DNA of 26,055 nucleotides from a virus, in IMG/VR virus record IMGVR_UViG_3300050119_000036, positions 1-26,055 of that record. The stretch is one strand, 5' to 3'. The position numbers and the translations under genes are program-made. Below the pieces are notes generated by a model, which saw only the letters and a program-made list of their open reading frames with translations, did no database searches and was not told the DNA's origin. Position 1 is the first letter of the stretch. Each line of letters begins with the position of its first letter. Shown here piece by piece: positions 1,352 to 26,055 of the stretch.

Positions 1352-1396
1352 AAAAAAGACCCCTAAGCATTTAAGGAGTTAAAGTGCTTAGGGGTC
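1352..1396 (-). terminator. Rho-independent terminator of the lysis operon
   Basis: Read on the minus strand, a perfect 12-bp stem (arms 1385-1396 and 1358-1369, GACCCCTAAGCA paired with TGCTTAGGGGTC) is extended by an inner TTTAA/TTAAA pairing and is followed directly by six T residues (1357-1352). It lies about 80 bases after the stop of the cysteine peptidase gene and would end transcripts coming from the structural and lysis genes. Confidence 0.9.
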
Positions 1397-1474: not shown

Positions 1475-2242
1475 CTACAGCGCCAAGGACTTAATATCTG
1501 CGAGGAGGGCTGCCTTGTCAATCTTCGGACCGGGACCATGTCCCTTCTCTAGCACTTCCATGCTGATGACGGCGTCGCACTCGTCCATGTACGCGGCAAG
1601 GAAGCCGTAGCTCATCTTCCGGCGCTGGCCCCAGGTGATGATCTCACAGGAGTCGTCGTCGTACCCGACGCCAAGGATGCAGTGCCCGCCCTCGATAGGC
1701 GAGCCCTTCACTACCGTGATCTCACGGCCGGGAATCCCGAACTGGTCCTGCATCGATTGCGGGCATTGTATCCCCATGAAGGCGAAGCCAAACAGGTCGA
1801 TGCACCGTTGGAAGGCGACAAGGCTATCAGTCTTGACGGGGGCGAACGCTCCGATCCGGTTAACCTTCGTCCCGATAGGCGCGTACGGCGGCGCGAACAG
1901 ACCGTACCGCTGCCAGGTGAGCAGGTGGGTGGCGACGACGAGGCCGGTGTCGGACCCGCCTGTCTCGTGGAAGTACTGCTCGCTGATCTCGGGGTCGGTC
2001 GGCTCGTAGTCGTGAGTCCCGAGAAGCGCGTTCATGGCCTTGATCGCGTGGTCAGTCCCCGCCTCGACGCAGTCCCCGAGCGTGTCGTTATCGGCCATCC
2101 CCCAGCCCCCCGCGGGCACCGGCGCGACGACCTTGCCGGCCGGCTGCGGAGGCTTCCCGAGCAGATAGTCCTCGGCCCAGCCTAGGGCGTGATACCTGAT
2201 CGCGGGCAGCTTACCTAGCTTCAAGTGCTGGAAGTCGGTCAC
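1475..2242 (-). CDS. Papain-like (C39-like) cysteine peptidase, stand-alone
   Basis: A 255-residue protein with the layout of papain-fold peptidases: Cys58 in NDTLGDCVEAG, His187 in EGGHCILGVGYD, and the ITWGQ strand at 202-206 that would supply the third active-site residue. The same three blocks are seen in the first domain of the phage lysin encoded at 2899-4524 (Cys59, His191, ETWGS). No signal peptide is visible. The GTG start overlaps the stop of the two-TM holin candidate (GTGA), which implies co-translation and a role in lysis, perhaps cleaving peptidoglycan stem or cross-bridge peptides. Alternatives are a maturation protease or an anti-host factor. Fold and active site are well supported; the substrate is inference. 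Confidence 0.75.
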   Translation of the reverse strand: MTDFQHLKLGKLPAIRYHALGWAEDYLLGKPPQPAGKVVAPVPAGGWGMADNDTLGDCVEAGTDHAIKAMNALLGTHDYEPTDPEISEQYFHETGGSDTGLVVATHLLTWQRYGLFAPPYAPIGTKVNRIGAFAPVKTDSLVAFQRCIDLFGFAFMGIQCPQSMQDQFGIPGREITVVKGSPIEGGHCILGVGYDDDSCEIITWGQRRKMSYGFLAAYMDECDAVISMEVLEKGHGPGPKIDKAALLADIKSLAL

Positions 2243-2466
2243 TGCGGCGCGGCCGACGTGAACCCGGTACTAAAGCCGTTCTCGACGGCTACAATCACGG
2301 CCGTCAGGACACCGGCTGCTGTGGTGACGAGCGCTGCATAGTGGACGACGGACGGAACGCCGCCGTACGTCGCGACGACGATGCCGGTGGCCGTGACCAC
2401 GAGGCCGAGGATCACCTTCACATCGGTCAGCGCGACTAGGATCTGCTTCAGGGTCGGTAGGGTCAT
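2239..2466 (-). CDS. Two-TM membrane protein, holin candidate
   Basis: The 75-residue product starts at an ATG preceded by AGGAGG. It has two hydrophobic stretches (about residues 17-36 and 43-62) separated by a short GG-containing turn and ends in a short polar tail, the usual shape of small phage holins. It sits directly between the lysin gene and the stand-alone cysteine peptidase, with which it shares a GTGA junction. The gene is the first downstream of the three 98-bp promoter repeats, so its expression may be controlled separately from the rest of the late operon. The role is inferred from topology and position only. Confidence 0.7.
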   Translation of the reverse strand: MTLPTLKQILVALTDVKVILGLVVTATGIVVATYGGVPSVVHYAALVTTAAGVLTAVIVAVENGFSTGFTSAAPQ

Positions 2467-2533
2467 GGTTCCTCCTGGGAGATAGGTGCTGGGAAATAAG
2501 AACACGGAACGGGGTTATGCACGGCACTGCATA

Positions 2534-2563
2534 ATTATGCATAGGTGGTCGTCATGATGCCAA
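2534..2563 (-). promoter_or_regulatory. Candidate promoter, repeat copy 1
   Basis: Minus-strand TTGGCA (2558-2563) and CATAAT (2534-2539) are separated by 18 bases; each matches the sigma-70 consensus at five of six positions. The -10 box is part of the palindrome TGCATAATTATGCA (2528-2541), and a third TTATGCA half site lies at 2515-2521, so a bound repressor would block the promoter. The holin candidate starts about 70 bases downstream. Confidence 0.55.
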
Positions 2564-2631
2564 CACTGTACCACGGGAGATAGGTGCTGGGAAATAAGAA
2601 CACGGAACGGGGTTATGCACGGCACTGCATA

Positions 2632-2661
2632 ATTATGCATAGGTGGTCGTCATGATGCCAA
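2632..2661 (-). promoter_or_regulatory. Candidate promoter, repeat copy 2
   Basis: Identical copy of the TTGGCA-N18-CATAAT promoter with the overlapping 14-bp palindrome (2626-2639), 98 bases upstream of copy 1 and pointing the same way. Confidence 0.55.
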
Positions 2662-2729
2662 CACTGTACCACGGGAGATAGGTGCTGGGAAATAAGAACA
2701 CGGAACGGGGTTATGCACGGCACTGCATA

Positions 2730-2759
2730 ATTATGCATAGGTGGTCGTCATGATGCCAA
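2730..2759 (-). promoter_or_regulatory. Candidate promoter, repeat copy 3
   Basis: Identical copy of the TTGGCA-N18-CATAAT promoter with the overlapping 14-bp palindrome (2724-2737). It is the copy farthest from the holin gene and transcribes through the other two units. Confidence 0.55.
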
Positions 2760-2810
2760 CACTGTACCACGGGAGGTACGCTTCGGGCAGCTGCAACGAG
2801 AGGCGCCGCC

Positions 2811-2898: not shown

Positions 2899-3147
2899 CT
2901 ATGGGAACGGCAGCCCGAGCTCCGCTGCGGTGGCAGCGTTTGCCGGGGTGCCGAAGGCCATCGGGTCGGCTACCGGGGCGGTTGGAGCGTTCCAGACCCG
3001 TGGCGCCTTGCTACCGGCGACGGCTCCGACGGCCAGCGCATCAGCATGCTGGGCCGCGCTCTCAAGCCACCGGAAGGCGGTAAGACCATCGCCTGCGAAC
3101 GAGGCGATGGTCCCGTGGACATTCTTCGCGTAGAACACGACTAGCAT
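2899..3147 (-). CDS. Internal in-frame start: separate lysin C-terminal domain (82 aa)
   Basis: Within the lysin gene, codon 460 is an ATG preceded by AGGAGG (3153-3158) with a five-base spacer (3148-3152), as good as any start in the window. It lies exactly after the proline linker. Initiation here would make the C-terminal domain alone. Several phage endolysins are known to produce a free cell-wall-binding domain from an internal start and to assemble with the full-length chain. Use of this site here is inferred from sequence. Confidence 0.5.
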   Translation of the reverse strand: MLVVFYAKNVHGTIASFAGDGLTAFRWLESAAQHADALAVGAVAGSKAPRVWNAPTAPVADPMAFGTPANAATAAELGLPFP

Positions 3148-4524
3148 TTTTCCCTCCTGAGGCGGGGGTGGCGGCGGTGGGACGGCTCCCAGGATCGCCG
3201 GGTTGAACGCGTCTAAGTCGACGGCGCCGGGGAAGCCGACCTCGGCAGACCCGAGCGAGTACTGGACAGCGAAGTCGCCAGCGGCCAGCGCGGTTGCGCC
3301 CGGACGGGCGGTCCACTGGCGTCCCAGCGGCCCCATGTTCTCAAGGTAGTACTCGTTGCAGTAGTGGAACGCCCCGGCGCCACAGAGCGCCAGGAACTCC
3401 TTGTGCCAGGCGACGTTATCGGACCAGTCCATGCCGCCGCTCACCTCGTCGTCCACCATGGGCGGCAGGTCGAGGACGGTTGAGCCGACGTAGGCCGTGA
3501 AGTAATCATGCTCCCCTTGCGCAGAGTTGGCCGAGGGGTGCGACATGTGGTACGCGCCGACCTTGATGCCGGCCGCGCGCGCGCCGGCCACCTGGACGTG
3601 GAAGTTCGGACTCTCGTAGAACCGGCCCTCTGTCGCCTGGACGAACGCGACCTCAACGCCGGCGGCCTTCGCGGTAGCCCAGTTGATGTTGGCTCCTTGC
3701 CAGTTCGAAACGTCGACGCCGCGGACGAGCCCGACCGGCGCGGATGGCGCTGCACTAGCGGGTCCCGCGAGTTGCCTCATGTCTCCCTCCAGGGCGGCAA
3801 GGTCCACCATCGGATCGCCCGCCCAATCGTTGCTGACGCACAGATAGAGCCCCGAGCAGTACGCGTCCCACCACGCCCACGATGCCGTCTGAGTCGAGCC
3901 CCAGGTCTCGAACGTCACGCCATCCGCGTCATATGCGCTGACGAGTGCGCAGTGCCAGCCCCATGAGCCAACCACCGCGCCCGGGCCGGTCGTGACCTCC
4001 CACTCCTCGCCCGCCACGCGCTGCGTGTCGGCGTCTATCGGCAGCCCGAGCAGCGAGCCACCACCTCCGAACAGGCTGAGCGCCGTCTGGGCCAGGAGGT
4101 GGTCGGTCGGCTCGACGACAGCCCAGGCCAGCAGTGTGTCCTGGTCCGCGCCGGGGGTTGCGCCGGGCGGCGCCGGGAAGCCGGTCGCCGCCCAGAGGTC
4201 CAGCGCCGCGGGCATCGATACGCCGACAGTCGTACTGCCGCCGGTTAGATACTCATACCAGGCCAGGATCTCGGCATCGGTGTAGATCCGGTCCCGGCCG
4301 AGAAACCGCTGCCACGCCTCGATCTGGTGGCTGACAAAGGCGGGGATGCAGTCTGAGGCGTACCCGTTCGCGTCGTACGGGTACGTGCCGCCGCCCGGCA
4401 CGACCCACGACGTGGGCGGCGCAGGGATAGCGGATCGGTCCGGCAGGTACTTCTCCAGCCGCAGGGCCCGACGGCCGAGCGGCTGGGTGGTCCAGGCCGC
4501 GCCTAGCCTCAGCCCTGGCGTCAC
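2899..4524 (-). CDS. Modular endolysin: papain-like peptidase + GH25 muramidase + C-terminal domain
   Basis: A 541-residue lytic enzyme. Residues about 40-235 form a papain/C39-like peptidase: Cys59 (YASDCIPAF), His191 (SWGWHCALV), and TWGS at 207-210. Residues about 266-445 are a glycoside hydrolase family 25 muramidase: RGVDVSNWQG with Asp271, FVQATEG with Glu299, GAYHM, the acidic PMVDDE motif (358-360) and VDLDAF (436-438). A run of prolines at 449-455 links to a C-terminal domain (about 460-541), probably for cell-wall binding. It would cut both peptide and glycan parts of peptidoglycan. The GTG start overlaps the stop of the one-TM holin candidate (GTGA). There is no signal peptide, so release should depend on a holin. 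An in-frame internal ATG at 3147 carries a strong ribosome site. Confidence 0.88.
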   Translation of the reverse strand: MTPGLRLGAAWTTQPLGRRALRLEKYLPDRSAIPAPPTSWVVPGGGTYPYDANGYASDCIPAFVSHQIEAWQRFLGRDRIYTDAEILAWYEYLTGGSTTVGVSMPAALDLWAATGFPAPPGATPGADQDTLLAWAVVEPTDHLLAQTALSLFGGGGSLLGLPIDADTQRVAGEEWEVTTGPGAVVGSWGWHCALVSAYDADGVTFETWGSTQTASWAWWDAYCSGLYLCVSNDWAGDPMVDLAALEGDMRQLAGPASAAPSAPVGLVRGVDVSNWQGANINWATAKAAGVEVAFVQATEGRFYESPNFHVQVAGARAAGIKVGAYHMSHPSANSAQGEHDYFTAYVGSTVLDLPPMVDDEVSGGMDWSDNVAWHKEFLALCGAGAFHYCNEYYLENMGPLGRQWTARPGATALAAGDFAVQYSLGSAEVGFPGAVDLDAFNPAILGAVPPPPPPPQEGKMLVVFYAKNVHGTIASFAGDGLTAFRWLESAAQHADALAVGAVAGSKAPRVWNAPTAPVADPMAFGTPANAATAAELGLPFP

Positions 4525-13300: not shown

Positions 13301-13479
13301 CAGGTACTCCCGCAGATAGTGTCCGAGAGGACGACGGATGGCGAGGTGTCCGAGGGTACGAAGCATGGGGCGGTGTCGAAGAGAACGGCGCACGGGGCCA
13401 GGTCGGCCAGCGTCGCCACGGGCGACGTGTCGCCCAGCAGCGCGCTTGGCGCGCACTCCGAGGCAGCTACTTCAGGCAT
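13300..13479 (-). CDS. Miniprotein with nine-residue DT repeats
   Basis: A 59-residue product with ATG after an excellent AGGAGG site. After the first 16 residues the chain falls into a nine-residue period: DTSPVATLA, DLAPCAVLF, DTAPCFVPS, DTSPSVVLS, then DTICGST. Asp, Pro and a hydrophobic pair recur at fixed spacing. Cys residues sit at 9, 30, 39 and 57. I know no family with this exact repeat. It lies between a capsid-region glycosyltransferase and the Ig-like protein, and the regular Ser/Thr sites could be modified by the glycosyltransferase, which is speculation. Confidence 0.65.
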   Translation of the reverse strand: MPEVAASECAPSALLGDTSPVATLADLAPCAVLFDTAPCFVPSDTSPSVVLSDTICGST

Positions 13480-15070
13480 GTGCCTTCCTCCTGCGAGCCT
13501 TGCGGTTCGGCGTGGCCCCGGGGCCTTCACCACCAGGGGCGGTGCCAATAGTGCCCGCGGGGCCACGTTGCGTTTCCGTCTCGGCCGACTGTCCCAACGC
13601 AACACGGGCCCGAGACAGGAACAGCGCCTTGTCGGCCTCGACGGTCTCCATTCCCTTGCGGTAGACATCGTCATCGGCGGCCTTGCCGGACATCGGGTGC
13701 AGGTGCTCCACCTGCGAACCGAGCGCGGACTGAAATACGTTACGTTGCTTTGCCGCGGCGGTCCACTCGTCGTCACAGTACCAATGGCCGTAGCCCTCGT
13801 GCACAACGATGCCGGGGCCATCGAAAAAGGTGGCGCCCACCGTATCAATATACTCGCGGGAAATAAGCGGGTGTGTTGCGTGCTCTCCCCTCTGGACACG
13901 GAGGTTCAGCAGGTCGTTAGTGCCAACCACCTTGGCGCCGTAGCGCCGCGCCACGTCCTGGGCCTGGTCGAGCCAGCCGGGGCGGAAGAACACATCATCC
14001 CCGACCAGGAGAATCCACGGGGTTTGGGACTGTGCCTCGGCCGCCTCGGCGGTCCAGGTGTCGTCGACGGTCAGGAAGTGGTACGCCCAGTTCACCTTCT
14101 CGGCAAACGTGCCGGGGTGCTCCAGCGCCCGCGCGCCGTACTTCTTGACCTCTGCGATCTCCTCGGCGTCACCCGGCTCACAAATGAAATACGCCTTGGT
14201 GAGCCCTGTCGTGGCCGTCAATGACTGCATTAGTGTTTTGACGTTCTGTGGGCGGTGTAATACGGGGATCAGAACGTCAACGCGCTCGGTTGCGGGCGGA
14301 GCCATGAAGCTCGCCCAGAAGTCCTCCTCTGCTACCCAGAGGGTCTTTTGGTGGGTCGTCCGTATCCCCGTGTGGACATATAGCGGGATCCCAAGCGTCA
14401 TCAGCCGGTAGCTGAAGCTCACGTCCTCGCCCATCTGCGATCGAATCGCGTGGGTGGCGACAGGCGCCGTTAGGTCCTCACCGCCGTCGGCGACACGGTT
14501 GAACCACGTCTCGCCGTAGGCTTCCTTCATCTGCTCAAGGACTGATCGGTGAATGATGATGCAGGCCCCACCCGTGGCGTGGCACTGGACGAGGGAGTTT
14601 GTTGGGTAGTGTTTGCGGCCGGTCATCCGTGAGACGCCATCGTCCAGCGTTCCAATGCCCGTGTGATTCATCCAGTCCATGATGACGGGGGTGGGGAAGC
14701 AGCGGTAGCCGCCTCTCCCGTCTGAGACGGCCTCGCGATACGCGAACGCTAGGCCGGCGACGACGGGCAGGTGGTGGGTCTCCGCAACGGCCAGCAGGAG
14801 CTCGAGGACGTTCGGCTCAAACCCCATGTCGCTGTCCAGAAAGAACAGCCATTGCTTGTCGGTCGAGAGGAGTTGCTCACACGCCTTATTCCTGGCCTCG
14901 GGAAGTCCCATTGTTCCCGACTTGATGTCGACGTAGCTGCTGATGCGCCGGGTGGTGGCCATGTCAAAACCCATCAGGTCCATAAGGGACCTCTGGAAGC
15001 TCGACGTGACCTCGTTTGTGTGGAGGTATGCCAGGACCACATCATGGGGCGCCACAGCCCGTTCTACCAA
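13472..15070 (-). CDS. Two-domain GT-A glycosyltransferase in head region
   Basis: A 532-residue protein with two glycosyltransferase-like halves. Half one (about 10-255) has a GT-A layout with WLFFLDSDMG (DSD at 79-81) and a later MGEDVSFSYRL acidic block (213-223). Half two (about 262-475) begins VDVLIPVLHRPQNV and has ILLVGDDVFF (357-362). The C-terminus is basic and low-complexity (RKARRRKAHA). Nucleotide-sugar-dependent transfer is expected. Two-domain enzymes of this kind are found among capsid genes of actinophages, where virion proteins can be glycosylated. The TTG start at 15070 overlaps the preceding gene; a GTG at 15055 is an alternative. Acceptor and sugar are unknown. Confidence 0.75.
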   Translation of the reverse strand: MVERAVAPHDVVLAYLHTNEVTSSFQRSLMDLMGFDMATTRRISSYVDIKSGTMGLPEARNKACEQLLSTDKQWLFFLDSDMGFEPNVLELLLAVAETHHLPVVAGLAFAYREAVSDGRGGYRCFPTPVIMDWMNHTGIGTLDDGVSRMTGRKHYPTNSLVQCHATGGACIIIHRSVLEQMKEAYGETWFNRVADGGEDLTAPVATHAIRSQMGEDVSFSYRLMTLGIPLYVHTGIRTTHQKTLWVAEEDFWASFMAPPATERVDVLIPVLHRPQNVKTLMQSLTATTGLTKAYFICEPGDAEEIAEVKKYGARALEHPGTFAEKVNWAYHFLTVDDTWTAEAAEAQSQTPWILLVGDDVFFRPGWLDQAQDVARRYGAKVVGTNDLLNLRVQRGEHATHPLISREYIDTVGATFFDGPGIVVHEGYGHWYCDDEWTAAAKQRNVFQSALGSQVEHLHPMSGKAADDDVYRKGMETVEADKALFLSRARVALGQSAETETQRGPAGTIGTAPGGEGPGATPNRKARRRKAHA

Positions 15071-22348: not shown

Positions 22349-22452
22349 TTGACGCCAATCGCTTGCGCCACATAGAACGCAAGCACCCAACCGATGAAGG
22401 ATATAGCCGTCAAAGCGACAAAACCGGCTGCAATCAGCGCGTAGCGGATCAT
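22345..22452 (-). CDS. Micro membrane protein (35 aa)
   Basis: The ATG overlaps the glycosyltransferase stop (ATGA), and the TGA overlaps the HNH ATG (ATGA). Nearly the whole chain is one hydrophobic helix (ALIAAGFVALTAISFIGWVL) with a short polar end. Double coupling supports translation. The function is unknown. It might anchor or assist its partner gene, or be a superinfection or signalling peptide, but nothing in the sequence decides this. Confidence 0.5.
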   Translation of the reverse strand: MIRYALIAAGFVALTAISFIGWVLAFYVAQAIGVK

Positions 22453-23108
22453 CTCGCGCCACCACCGTCGATCCAATAGCCGACCTGCGGGTATTCGACC
22501 GTGATCTTTGGCACAAACACGAATTCGACGCCAGCTTGCAGCCAGTGATCGACCAGAATGCCGTCCATCGCATATGAGTCGCCGCCAGCTGTATGCGGGT
22601 CCCAGGTGGCTACGTTCTCGAGTAGTTCCGTTCGGTGGACGATTACAGAGGCGTCAATATGGTTCACGGCGCTACCGGCAGCGATTTGACCGTCTCCGAG
22701 AACTCGACCGTCCGGATATGCCAGCTGCGAGTAGGCAAAACCGGCATTCGGGTGACAATCCAGCGCGGCGACTAACGCAGCAAGGTGGTTTGGTCGCCAA
22801 ACGTTGTCATCGTCGAGGTAGGCCATATACGGTGTCTTGGCGAGCAGGCCGGCCAAAACGCGATTCCAATGTCCCGGCGTTCCGTGCGGACGACCAAGTT
22901 CGCGAACGTCGTAGTGGTCGGCGCGAAGCAGATCGAGTTGCGGGATGTTCTCCCACAAGATCGACCACAGCGCGGAGTCATGACCGTTCGGAACGATCAT
23001 GTGGGTCCAATCGGTGAACGTCTGCGCACGAACGGAGTGAATTGCAGCTAGGAGCTTGTCGTGTCGCGCCGATACGGTCGGCGTAACAACGGTAACGCGC
23101 CTGGTCAC
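22449..23108 (-). CDS. GT-A family glycosyltransferase (family 2-like)
   Basis: A 219-residue enzyme with VTVVTPTVSARHDKLLAAIHSV at its N-terminus, QTFTDWTHMIVPNG, and the nucleotide-sugar-binding motif AYLDDDNVW (Asp99-Asp101). A later HIDASVIVHRTELL block and WLQAGVEFVFV complete the GT-A pattern. It should transfer a sugar from a nucleotide donor, possibly to phage DNA, virion protein or host surface. The start is a GTG directly after an in-frame TAA, so it cannot be longer. Composition is less GC-rich than the head genes. It is a second glycosyltransferase besides the two-domain enzyme at 13472-15070. Confidence 0.8.
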   Translation of the reverse strand: MTRRVTVVTPTVSARHDKLLAAIHSVRAQTFTDWTHMIVPNGHDSALWSILWENIPQLDLLRADHYDVRELGRPHGTPGHWNRVLAGLLAKTPYMAYLDDDNVWRPNHLAALVAALDCHPNAGFAYSQLAYPDGRVLGDGQIAAGSAVNHIDASVIVHRTELLENVATWDPHTAGGDSYAMDGILVDHWLQAGVEFVFVPKITVEYPQVGYWIDGGGAR

Positions 23109-23283: not shown

Positions 23284-23564
23284 TCGTCGGTGTCGTCAGC
23301 CTCTTCCAGCGCGATGACTGGAAACAGCCGACCGTGGACGTAGCCAGACACCATCGACTCAGCCCATTCGGGCGAGAAGCCGTCAGCGCCGGTCGTCAGT
23401 TCGTGGCGGAACGACTTTGCATCGTCGGCTATGTCCCGCAGGAAGGTCCGCTCGTTATCGACTTCGACGCGGCGAGCGTTGGCGGCTTTGAAGATGTCGT
23501 CCAGCGCGCGAGGCGTCAGAATCGGCTTTGACCTTGGTGTGGCCTTAGTGGTCCGAACGGTCAT
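23280..23564 (-). CDS. Hypothetical acidic protein (94 aa)
   Basis: An ATG at 23564 with GGAGGA and a seven-base spacer. It has a basic start (MTVRTTKATPRSK), then a helical, charged body (DDIFKAANARRVEVDNERTF), and an acidic end (EEADDTDE). Its start lies inside the end of the ribbon-helix-helix gene by 20 bases. This pairing looks like an antitoxin-toxin layout, but the sequence matches no toxin I know, so I leave it as hypothetical. Confidence 0.65.
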   Translation of the reverse strand: MTVRTTKATPRSKPILTPRALDDIFKAANARRVEVDNERTFLRDIADDAKSFRHELTTGADGFSPEWAESMVSGYVHGRLFPVIALEEADDTDE

Positions 23565-23745
23565 TGGCGACTCCTCCAAGGTCGATCCGCTCGATCCGGG
23601 CACCGTGAGGAGCCATTTCTGCGATCTGCCTGGTCTCCTCCACGGCCTGGACGAGGGCCTCGGTCCGGCTGATCCTCTTCTTCGTTGCGAGTTCATCCAA
23701 GGCACGTAGCGTCGCATCGGGCAATTCCACTTGGACAGTGGTCAC
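23545..23745 (-). CDS. Ribbon-helix-helix DNA-binding protein
   Basis: A 66-residue protein. The first 40 residues match the MetJ/Arc/CopG class: a short strand (TVQVELPDA), then helix LRALDELATKKR, a turn at IS and helix RTEALVQAVEET. Such dimers bind operator DNA through the paired strand. The tail is a basic/polar extension. Start overlaps the preceding gene (GTGA-like junction at 23742-23745). It is a candidate for the factor that binds one of the palindromic operators in the left part of the window, which is a guess to be tested. Confidence 0.7.
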   Translation of the reverse strand: MTTVQVELPDATLRALDELATKKRISRTEALVQAVEETRQIAEMAPHGARIERIDLGGVANDRSDH

Positions 23746-24017: not shown

Positions 24018-24186
24018 CGGATTCCTCCGGAGGTGGCCCACGACGCCGCCCGGCTCGGCCCCACGGAGGCACCAGGCCGTAGGTATCGATGCTGGGCATC
24101 TTGTCGCTCGGCCGTGGCGACTTCGGATCGTGCTCCCTGAGCCATGTGTCGGCCTCGTCGGACTCGGCGAAGTAGTCGGCTCTCAT
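23968..24186 (-). CDS. Hypothetical protein (72 aa)
   Basis: An ATG inside the first copy of the 61-bp tandem repeat opens a 72-residue frame that begins MRADYFAESDEADTWLREHD and then becomes Pro/Arg/Glu-rich and disordered. It overlaps the next gene by about 50 bases. No family recognised. GAGGAGGTG lies 11-20 bases upstream and may act as a ribosome site. Confidence 0.55.
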   Translation of the reverse strand: MRADYFAESDEADTWLREHDPKSPRPSDKMPSIDTYGLVPPWGRAGRRRGPPPEESDADTTEAKDAGSEGRL

Positions 24187-24294
24187 TTTAGTCCTACACC
24201 TCCTCTCCGCAAAAGGTGTTTAGTCCGGCGAAGTAGTCGGCTCTCATTTTAGTCCTACACCTCCTCTCCGCAAAAGGTGTTTAGTCCGGCGAAG
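24165..24294. repeat. 61-bp tandem duplication across a gene junction
   Basis: Two exact copies (24165-24225 and 24226-24286) are followed by eight bases of a third. The unit spans the last codons and stop of the helix-turn-helix gene and the start codon and first codons of the 72-residue gene. Both genes survive, and a chimeric mini-frame is created between them. Confidence 0.95.
24194..24247 (-). CDS. Chimeric 17-residue mini-ORF made by the duplication
   Basis: The duplicated start codon opens a frame reading MRADYFAGLNTFCGEEV then stop: the first seven residues equal the start of the 72-residue gene and the last ten equal the end of the helix-turn-helix gene. It has the same upstream sequence as the real gene. 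It may be translated, but function is doubtful. Confidence 0.3.
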   Translation of the reverse strand: MRADYFAGLNTFCGEEV

Positions 24295-25811: not shown

Positions 25812-26055
25812 TCGTTCTCCTTTTGGTTCCAGTAGGCGACGGCTCGGCGGGACGCTCCGATGGCAGCCTCGAGCGAGCCACCACCGCGACGGCGTTCCTC
25901 GGCCGTGAAGGTGTGGTTACCGCGACGGCATTCCTCGGCCGTGAAGGTGTGGTTACGTCCACCGCCCCCGCCCCTCCTGCACTCCTCGGCCGTGAAGACG
26001 TGGCGCTCGGCGGGTCGGGCGTGAGCCGCCTTCGCAGCGGCGGAGCGTGGGTCTT
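25778..26055 (-). CDS. Repeat-bearing protein, partial (starts beyond window)
   Basis: An open frame enters from the right edge and ends with TAG at 25778-25780. Three copies of an H(T/V)FTAEE(C/R)RRG unit (two nearly identical, encoded by a 36-bp tandem repeat at 25885-25956, and a diverged third) are followed by LEAAIGASRRAVAYWNQKE. A short motif of helix plus 'RRGG' recalls small DNA-binding motifs such as NUMOD3 or KGG-type repeats, but the match is loose. The start and most of the protein may lie outside the window. It could bind nucleic acid; function unproven. Confidence 0.55.
   Translation of the reverse strand, partial: DPRSAAAKAAHARPAERHVFTAEECRRGGGGGRNHTFTAEECRRGNHTFTAEERRRGGGSLEAAIGASRRAVAYWNQKENEWHSRQNSASA
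25885..25956. repeat. 36-bp tandem repeat in coding DNA
   Basis: Two adjacent 36-bp units (25885-25920 and 25921-25956) differ at one base (G to A). A diverged third copy of the central CTCGGCCGTGAAG core begins near 25980. The length is a multiple of three, so it repeats a 12-residue protein unit in frame. Confidence 0.9.

Follow-up and report, generated by a model that had tools for sequence, protein, structure and literature searches.

What are three identical copies of one intergenic unit doing between two genes of a phage lysis cassette? The window analysed here is a viral contig of 26,055 bases. Its late operon, on the minus strand, contains terminase, portal, protease, capsid and tail genes together with genes for a GH25 endolysin, a holin-like protein and a second peptidase-like protein. 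Between the endolysin gene (stop at 2899) and the holin-like gene (start at 2466) lies an array at 2477-2770, in which sequence comparison within the window identified one 98-bp unit present three times, the copies being base-for-base identical. On the minus strand these occupy 2477-2574 (copy 1, nearest the holin), 2575-2672 (copy 2) and 2673-2770 (copy 3). The array is bounded by a microhomology, GGGAG at 2477-2481 and again at 2771-2775, the latter being a 5-bp partial fourth copy. Each copy contains TTATGCA-N6-TGCATAATTATGCA and, on the minus strand, TTGGCA-N18-CATAAT. A sequence-only reading of this DNA had described three exact copies carrying these elements, with TTATGCA six bases from the palindrome, and every element was located as described. 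Our analysis points to an operator for the arginine repressor ArgR of the host, recently tripled and probably situated at a local promoter that serves the holin and second peptidase, a proposal for which we see the considerations for and against as about evenly balanced.

The endolysin (2899-4524, minus strand) was resolved by protein family search into an N-terminal part resembling phrog_19005 followed by a GH25 muramidase. On the other side of the array, the holin-like protein (2239-2466, minus strand; 75 aa) has two hydrophobic stretches. It matched no family and was named by position and hydropathy, and no relatives of it were found among phages. The second peptidase-like protein (1475-2242, minus strand; 255 aa) belongs by protein family search to phrog_19005, a family whose function is not annotated, and matched a phage 'cysteine protease' weakly; no exact relatives were found in viral contigs. 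Since phrog_19005 is matched both by this protein and by the N-terminal part of the endolysin, the cassette holds two related domain copies, one free and one fused. The late operon ends after the peptidase gene at an intrinsic terminator recognised from sequence and fold (1352-1396, minus strand), with a 12-bp stem followed by T6. The terminator region (1330-1420) gave a fold z of -9.3 and was absent from the list produced by a simple consensus scan. The window also encodes two glycosyltransferase-like proteins (13472-15070 and 22449-23108), one lying among the head genes, the other adjacent to the terminase region.

Two readings of the unit were rejected. Coding was discarded given that 98 is not divisible by three and that the array is crossed by no minus-strand frame of substantial length. 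A structured RNA was discarded given that the folding of the unit does not surpass that of shuffled sequence (z -0.2 and 0.04) and that it has no match in Rfam. Lacking any fold excess over shuffles, the unit was taken as a DNA site. By motif search of the window the palindromic core stands at 2528-2541, 2626-2639 and 2724-2737 in copies 1, 2 and 3, with the TTATGCA half-sites at 2515-2521, 2613-2619 and 2711-2717. When up to three mismatches to the palindrome were allowed, the window contained 4 matches against a shuffle mean of 0.17.

The palindrome resembles the ARG box, whose consensus is AWTGCATRWWYATGCAWT in Streptomycetes and TNTGAATWWWWATTCANW in E. coli (PMC4865122). The window 18-mer ACTGCATAATTATGCATA agrees with the Streptomycetes consensus at 16/18 positions and at 14/14 in the core, a comparison in which the phage host is itself inferred. 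The palindrome fits the ARG-box core, defined as TGNATWWWWATNCA or in its actinobacterial form as TGCATRWWYATGCA, and only 0.0004 matches to TGCATRWWYATGCA would be expected by chance in the window. Set against a two-box arrangement on one face of the DNA with centres 20-21 bp apart, TTATGCA is a degenerate second ARG box centred 20 bp from the core centre. Its half-site at spacer 6 is present and its left half, AACGGGG, is poor; only one half of the upstream box in the pair is good. Similarity alone does not prove ArgR binding, because ArgR proved not to bind a site near loxP of phage P1 that matches the ARG box at 16/18 (PMC2409434).

Sequence relationships suggest an actinobacterial host. 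All 10 terminase relatives found in genomes belonged to Actinomycetota, the best (43%) in a groundwater Actinomycetota genome, and the portal was closest to those of Gordonia phages. A genome scan with the portal alignment gave no match, and no DNA similarity to the window was found in the phage collection. The repressor gene argR was encoded in each of the six actinobacterial genomes carrying related terminases. Those six genomes (about 39 Mb together) held a single occurrence of the pattern. It lies in Arthrobacter GMC3 with argR on one side and argG on the other, both genes being confirmed. In the groundwater Actinomycetota genome a looser box pair, 20 bp apart, lies immediately before argC, identified as such from its sequence. 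The exact pattern was carried by 20/148 Actinomycetes genomes, and argC or argG adjoined 7 of the 20 sites examined. Eight of these 20 sites had an additional exact half-site. Over spacers of 0 to 20 it fell at 6 in all eight and at no other value. The spacer of 6 in the phage element is the same as in those eight chromosomal sites.

Full double ARG boxes at spacer 6-7 were present in six viral contigs. No viral contig had them at spacer 11-12, nor did any contain the control, scrambled half-sites of equal composition. Two pairs of related phages have conserved half-sites and diverged spacer bases and flanks. The 26-nt core of the window element had no exact match in viral contigs. Taken together, the genome, half-site-spacer and viral-contig tests favour an ArgR operator above all other readings of the sequence. 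In sequence and in spacing the palindrome and half-site likely correspond to an actinobacterial ArgR operator, and we are fairly confident that an actinobacterial ArgR would bind the 98-bp unit. The occurrence of double ARG-box elements in unrelated phages is, tentatively, a hint that phages may use ArgR more widely. Noncoding ARG-box-like elements, double or triple, were noted several times in one genome (contig L050, 2820-2854, 3854-3887 and 6953-6987) and in unrelated phage contigs (L052, 10490-10524; L051, 1648-1681; L013/L015; L053, 233-266), with half-sites conserved over diverging spacers. A TAGGTG after the palindrome, common to contigs L012 and L014, was set aside as too weak to build on.

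The operator could instead belong to a repressor of the phage, silencing the lysis promoter in a prophage. A small ribbon-helix-helix (RHH) type regulator is encoded at 23545-23745, the genome is a fragment so that a repressor could lie outside it, and repeated operators are common in phages. However, no further copy of TGCATAATTATGCA was found outside the array in the whole 26,055-base window, the vicinity of the RHH gene included, and the palindrome with its spacer of 6 also marks bacterial argC operators. A phage-encoded repressor is thus improbable. The palindromes had also been proposed as iterons, and tandem repeats bearing palindromes are what a replication origin might show. The period of 98 bp and the position within the late lysis region, between lysin and holin genes, speak against an origin, as does the recurrence of the motif at chromosomal arg genes with the argC architecture. 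No replication initiator was recognised among the neighbouring proteins searched. The iteron proposal thus has no support, and its chance of being correct appears minute.

The promoter-like TTGGCA-N18-CATAAT faces the holin and occurs once per copy (minus strand; 2534-2563 in copy 1, then 2632-2661 and 2730-2759), with its -10 inside the palindrome. It matches the sigma-70-type -35 and -10 hexamers at 10/12 positions with a spacing of 18, inside the usual 16-18. As the copies are identical, the three matches were counted as one independent site, tripled. The chance of a 10/12 site on the same strand in the 236-nt single-copy spacer is about 0.007, and 0.9 sites of at least 9/12 would be expected in the 4 kb scanned. 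Promoters of actinobacteria often differ from the sigma-70-type consensus. The likeness to a promoter is moderate, and the promoter-operator reading stands on one independent site. A leader of about 60 nt, with the ribosome-binding site AGGAGG of the holin-like gene (2471-2476, minus strand), lies between the holin-nearest copy of the element and the holin ATG. The earlier idea of repressible promoters ahead of the holin finds support in its operator/promoter part, which the ArgR-type sequence and spacing make more specific.

The origin of the tripling can be read from a sister contig, IMGVR_UViG_3300037139_000012 (L004/L006), which is 99.7% identical to the window over 19.8 kb (about 50 substitutions) and has one copy of the 98-bp unit. 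Beyond copy number, only two indels distinguish the contigs, each of 1 base and both within the unit. In place of TGCATAATTATGCA the sister has the 13-nt palindrome TGCATATTATGCA, with one base (A) missing. Either that strain can do without an intact site or the contig end was misread; the contig terminates 34 bases past the unit, and sequence there may be less reliable. The single copy is flanked by GGGAGATA and GGGAGGTA, 98 bp apart, and the tandem junctions of the window array fall in GGGAG. As GGGAG bounds the array and is also found 98 bp apart in the single-copy form, replication slippage accounts for the tripling. Local amplification of an intergenic unit, as first suggested, is thus upheld by the single-copy state of a near-identical contig and by the GGGAG microhomology at the ends.

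Alternatively, the triplication might be an artefact, assembly or amplification having inflated one or two real copies to three. The array (302 bp) exceeds usual short reads and the sister contig has one copy; given this length and the possibly unreliable end of the sister contig, the assembled count of three is not provable. Against an artefact, the 5-bp junction microhomology is far shorter than any assembly word, so junction-spanning reads probably exist, and assembly is as apt to collapse repeats as to inflate their number. Junctions in GGGAG are what slippage or short-homology recombination should leave behind, which makes pure assembly invention unlikely. We consider an artefact distinctly improbable.

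A more distant relative was found in contigs G002/G003, which represent the same phage, with a portal 56-57% identical to that of the window. Its gene order of GH25 lysin, membrane protein (holin) and peptidase is the same, and its lysin-holin gap is 70 nt, with neither the palindrome nor the 98-bp unit. The element has thus been gained or lost within the family, and a fixed module of the phage family was ruled out. The comparison of copy number in related phages that had been recommended gives three in the window as assembled, one in the sister contig and zero in G002/G003. Long degenerate 12-bp repeats were seen in this relative, about 48 copies at 3099-3639 of L022 (G003) and about 22 at 2560-2811 of L025 (G002).

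To judge from its sequence, the phage genome is rich in recent tandem duplications. A perfect 17-bp array of ACCCTATATACCTCTAG (1205-1297; 5.5 copies, AT-rich) lies just past the late-operon terminator, and a perfect 8-bp array of CTCGGGTA (2853-2886; 4.2 copies), equal in copy number in the sister contig, directly follows the endolysin stop. Two near-perfect arrays, with 2.1 copies each of units of 61 bp and 36 bp, occur at 24165-24294 and 25883-25956.

The strongest rival explanation is neutral array growth, in which slippage at GGGAG in a length-tolerant spacer tripled an ArgR operator, or some other intergenic remnant, and left lysis unaffected. The sister with one altered copy has an identical endolysin, G002/G003 manages with its 70-nt spacer, and the several other perfect tandem arrays in the window indicate that array growth is common in this genome. 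By contrast, the operator-like content is far above chance and lies exactly ahead of the holin start, and we consider a purely neutral tripling unlikely, if well worth bearing in mind. The proposal that amplification tunes lysis timing gained no support from the same comparisons: the single-copy sister retains the lysin and the holin start, and G002/G003 keeps the gene order without the element. We regard functional tuning by copy number as doubtful.

From the observed sequence, arrangement, copy variation and arg-operator match we infer host identity, ArgR binding, promoter activity, a sign of control and an effect on lysis as follows. Each 98-bp unit would be an intergenic operator for host ArgR, its perfect ARG-box core and the half-site 20 bp off (centre to centre) covering the -10 of the holin-facing promoter. 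When arginine is plentiful, ArgR-arginine would be bound and the local promoter off, leaving the holin and peptidase to be served by read-through of the long late transcript. A drop in arginine, or titration of ArgR by replicating phage DNA, would open the promoter and yield extra holin and peptidase. The tripling would be recent, the product of slippage between GGGAG repeats spaced by 98 bp. With three copies the operator dosage would be higher and as many as three start sites would be available. We give an even chance that the operator really controls the lysis genes. Promoter release may advance or delay lysis, and the moment at which the cell bursts may depend on the arginine or nutrient state of the host. 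Only tentatively do we propose that the phage puts part of its lysis cassette under host ArgR and sets it via tandem operator number, with lysis tracking nutrient state.

Titration could also be the sole function, the array acting as a decoy whose three ARG boxes on replicating phage DNA titrate ArgR and derepress host arginine synthesis, with the lysis neighbours incidental. Several intact boxes do stand together in noncoding DNA, and a decoy would require no promoter. Its position and promoter-like sequence immediately ahead of the holin, and the altered box in the single-copy variant, do not favour a decoy, which we regard as very improbable.

Phages are usually regarded as setting the time of lysis themselves, by way of late transcription and of holin and antiholin. 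With a site for a host amino-acid repressor ahead of the holin, host metabolism would be linked directly to lysis, and operator copy number would be an easily altered dial. Among the papers searched, none described an ArgR operator in a phage lysis region, and a search on tandem duplication at phage lysis promoters found nothing on point. The stoperators of mycobacteriophage L5 are likewise multiple repressor sites in a phage of Actinobacteria. They lack symmetry, lie dispersed and bind the phage's own repressor, whereas the window sites are palindromic, tandem and similar to those of a host repressor. The cer site of ColE1 and the proposed site near P1 loxP are likewise ARG-box sequences on mobile DNA and involve host ArgR. 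Both concern recombination, and the P1 site is not ArgR-bound (PMC2409434), whereas the window array has a promoter context. The closest likeness is to the ArgR operators of actinobacterial argC and argG (AWTGCATRWWYATGCAWT in Streptomycetes), which share the core at 14/14 positions and, in 8/20 chromosomal sites, the spacer of 6. In contrast to these, the window's operators are in a phage, before a holin and a peptidase, in three tandem copies and with one good half in the second box. By its sequence, the array is thus likely an operator of a familiar type, found where, and in as many copies as, one would not expect.
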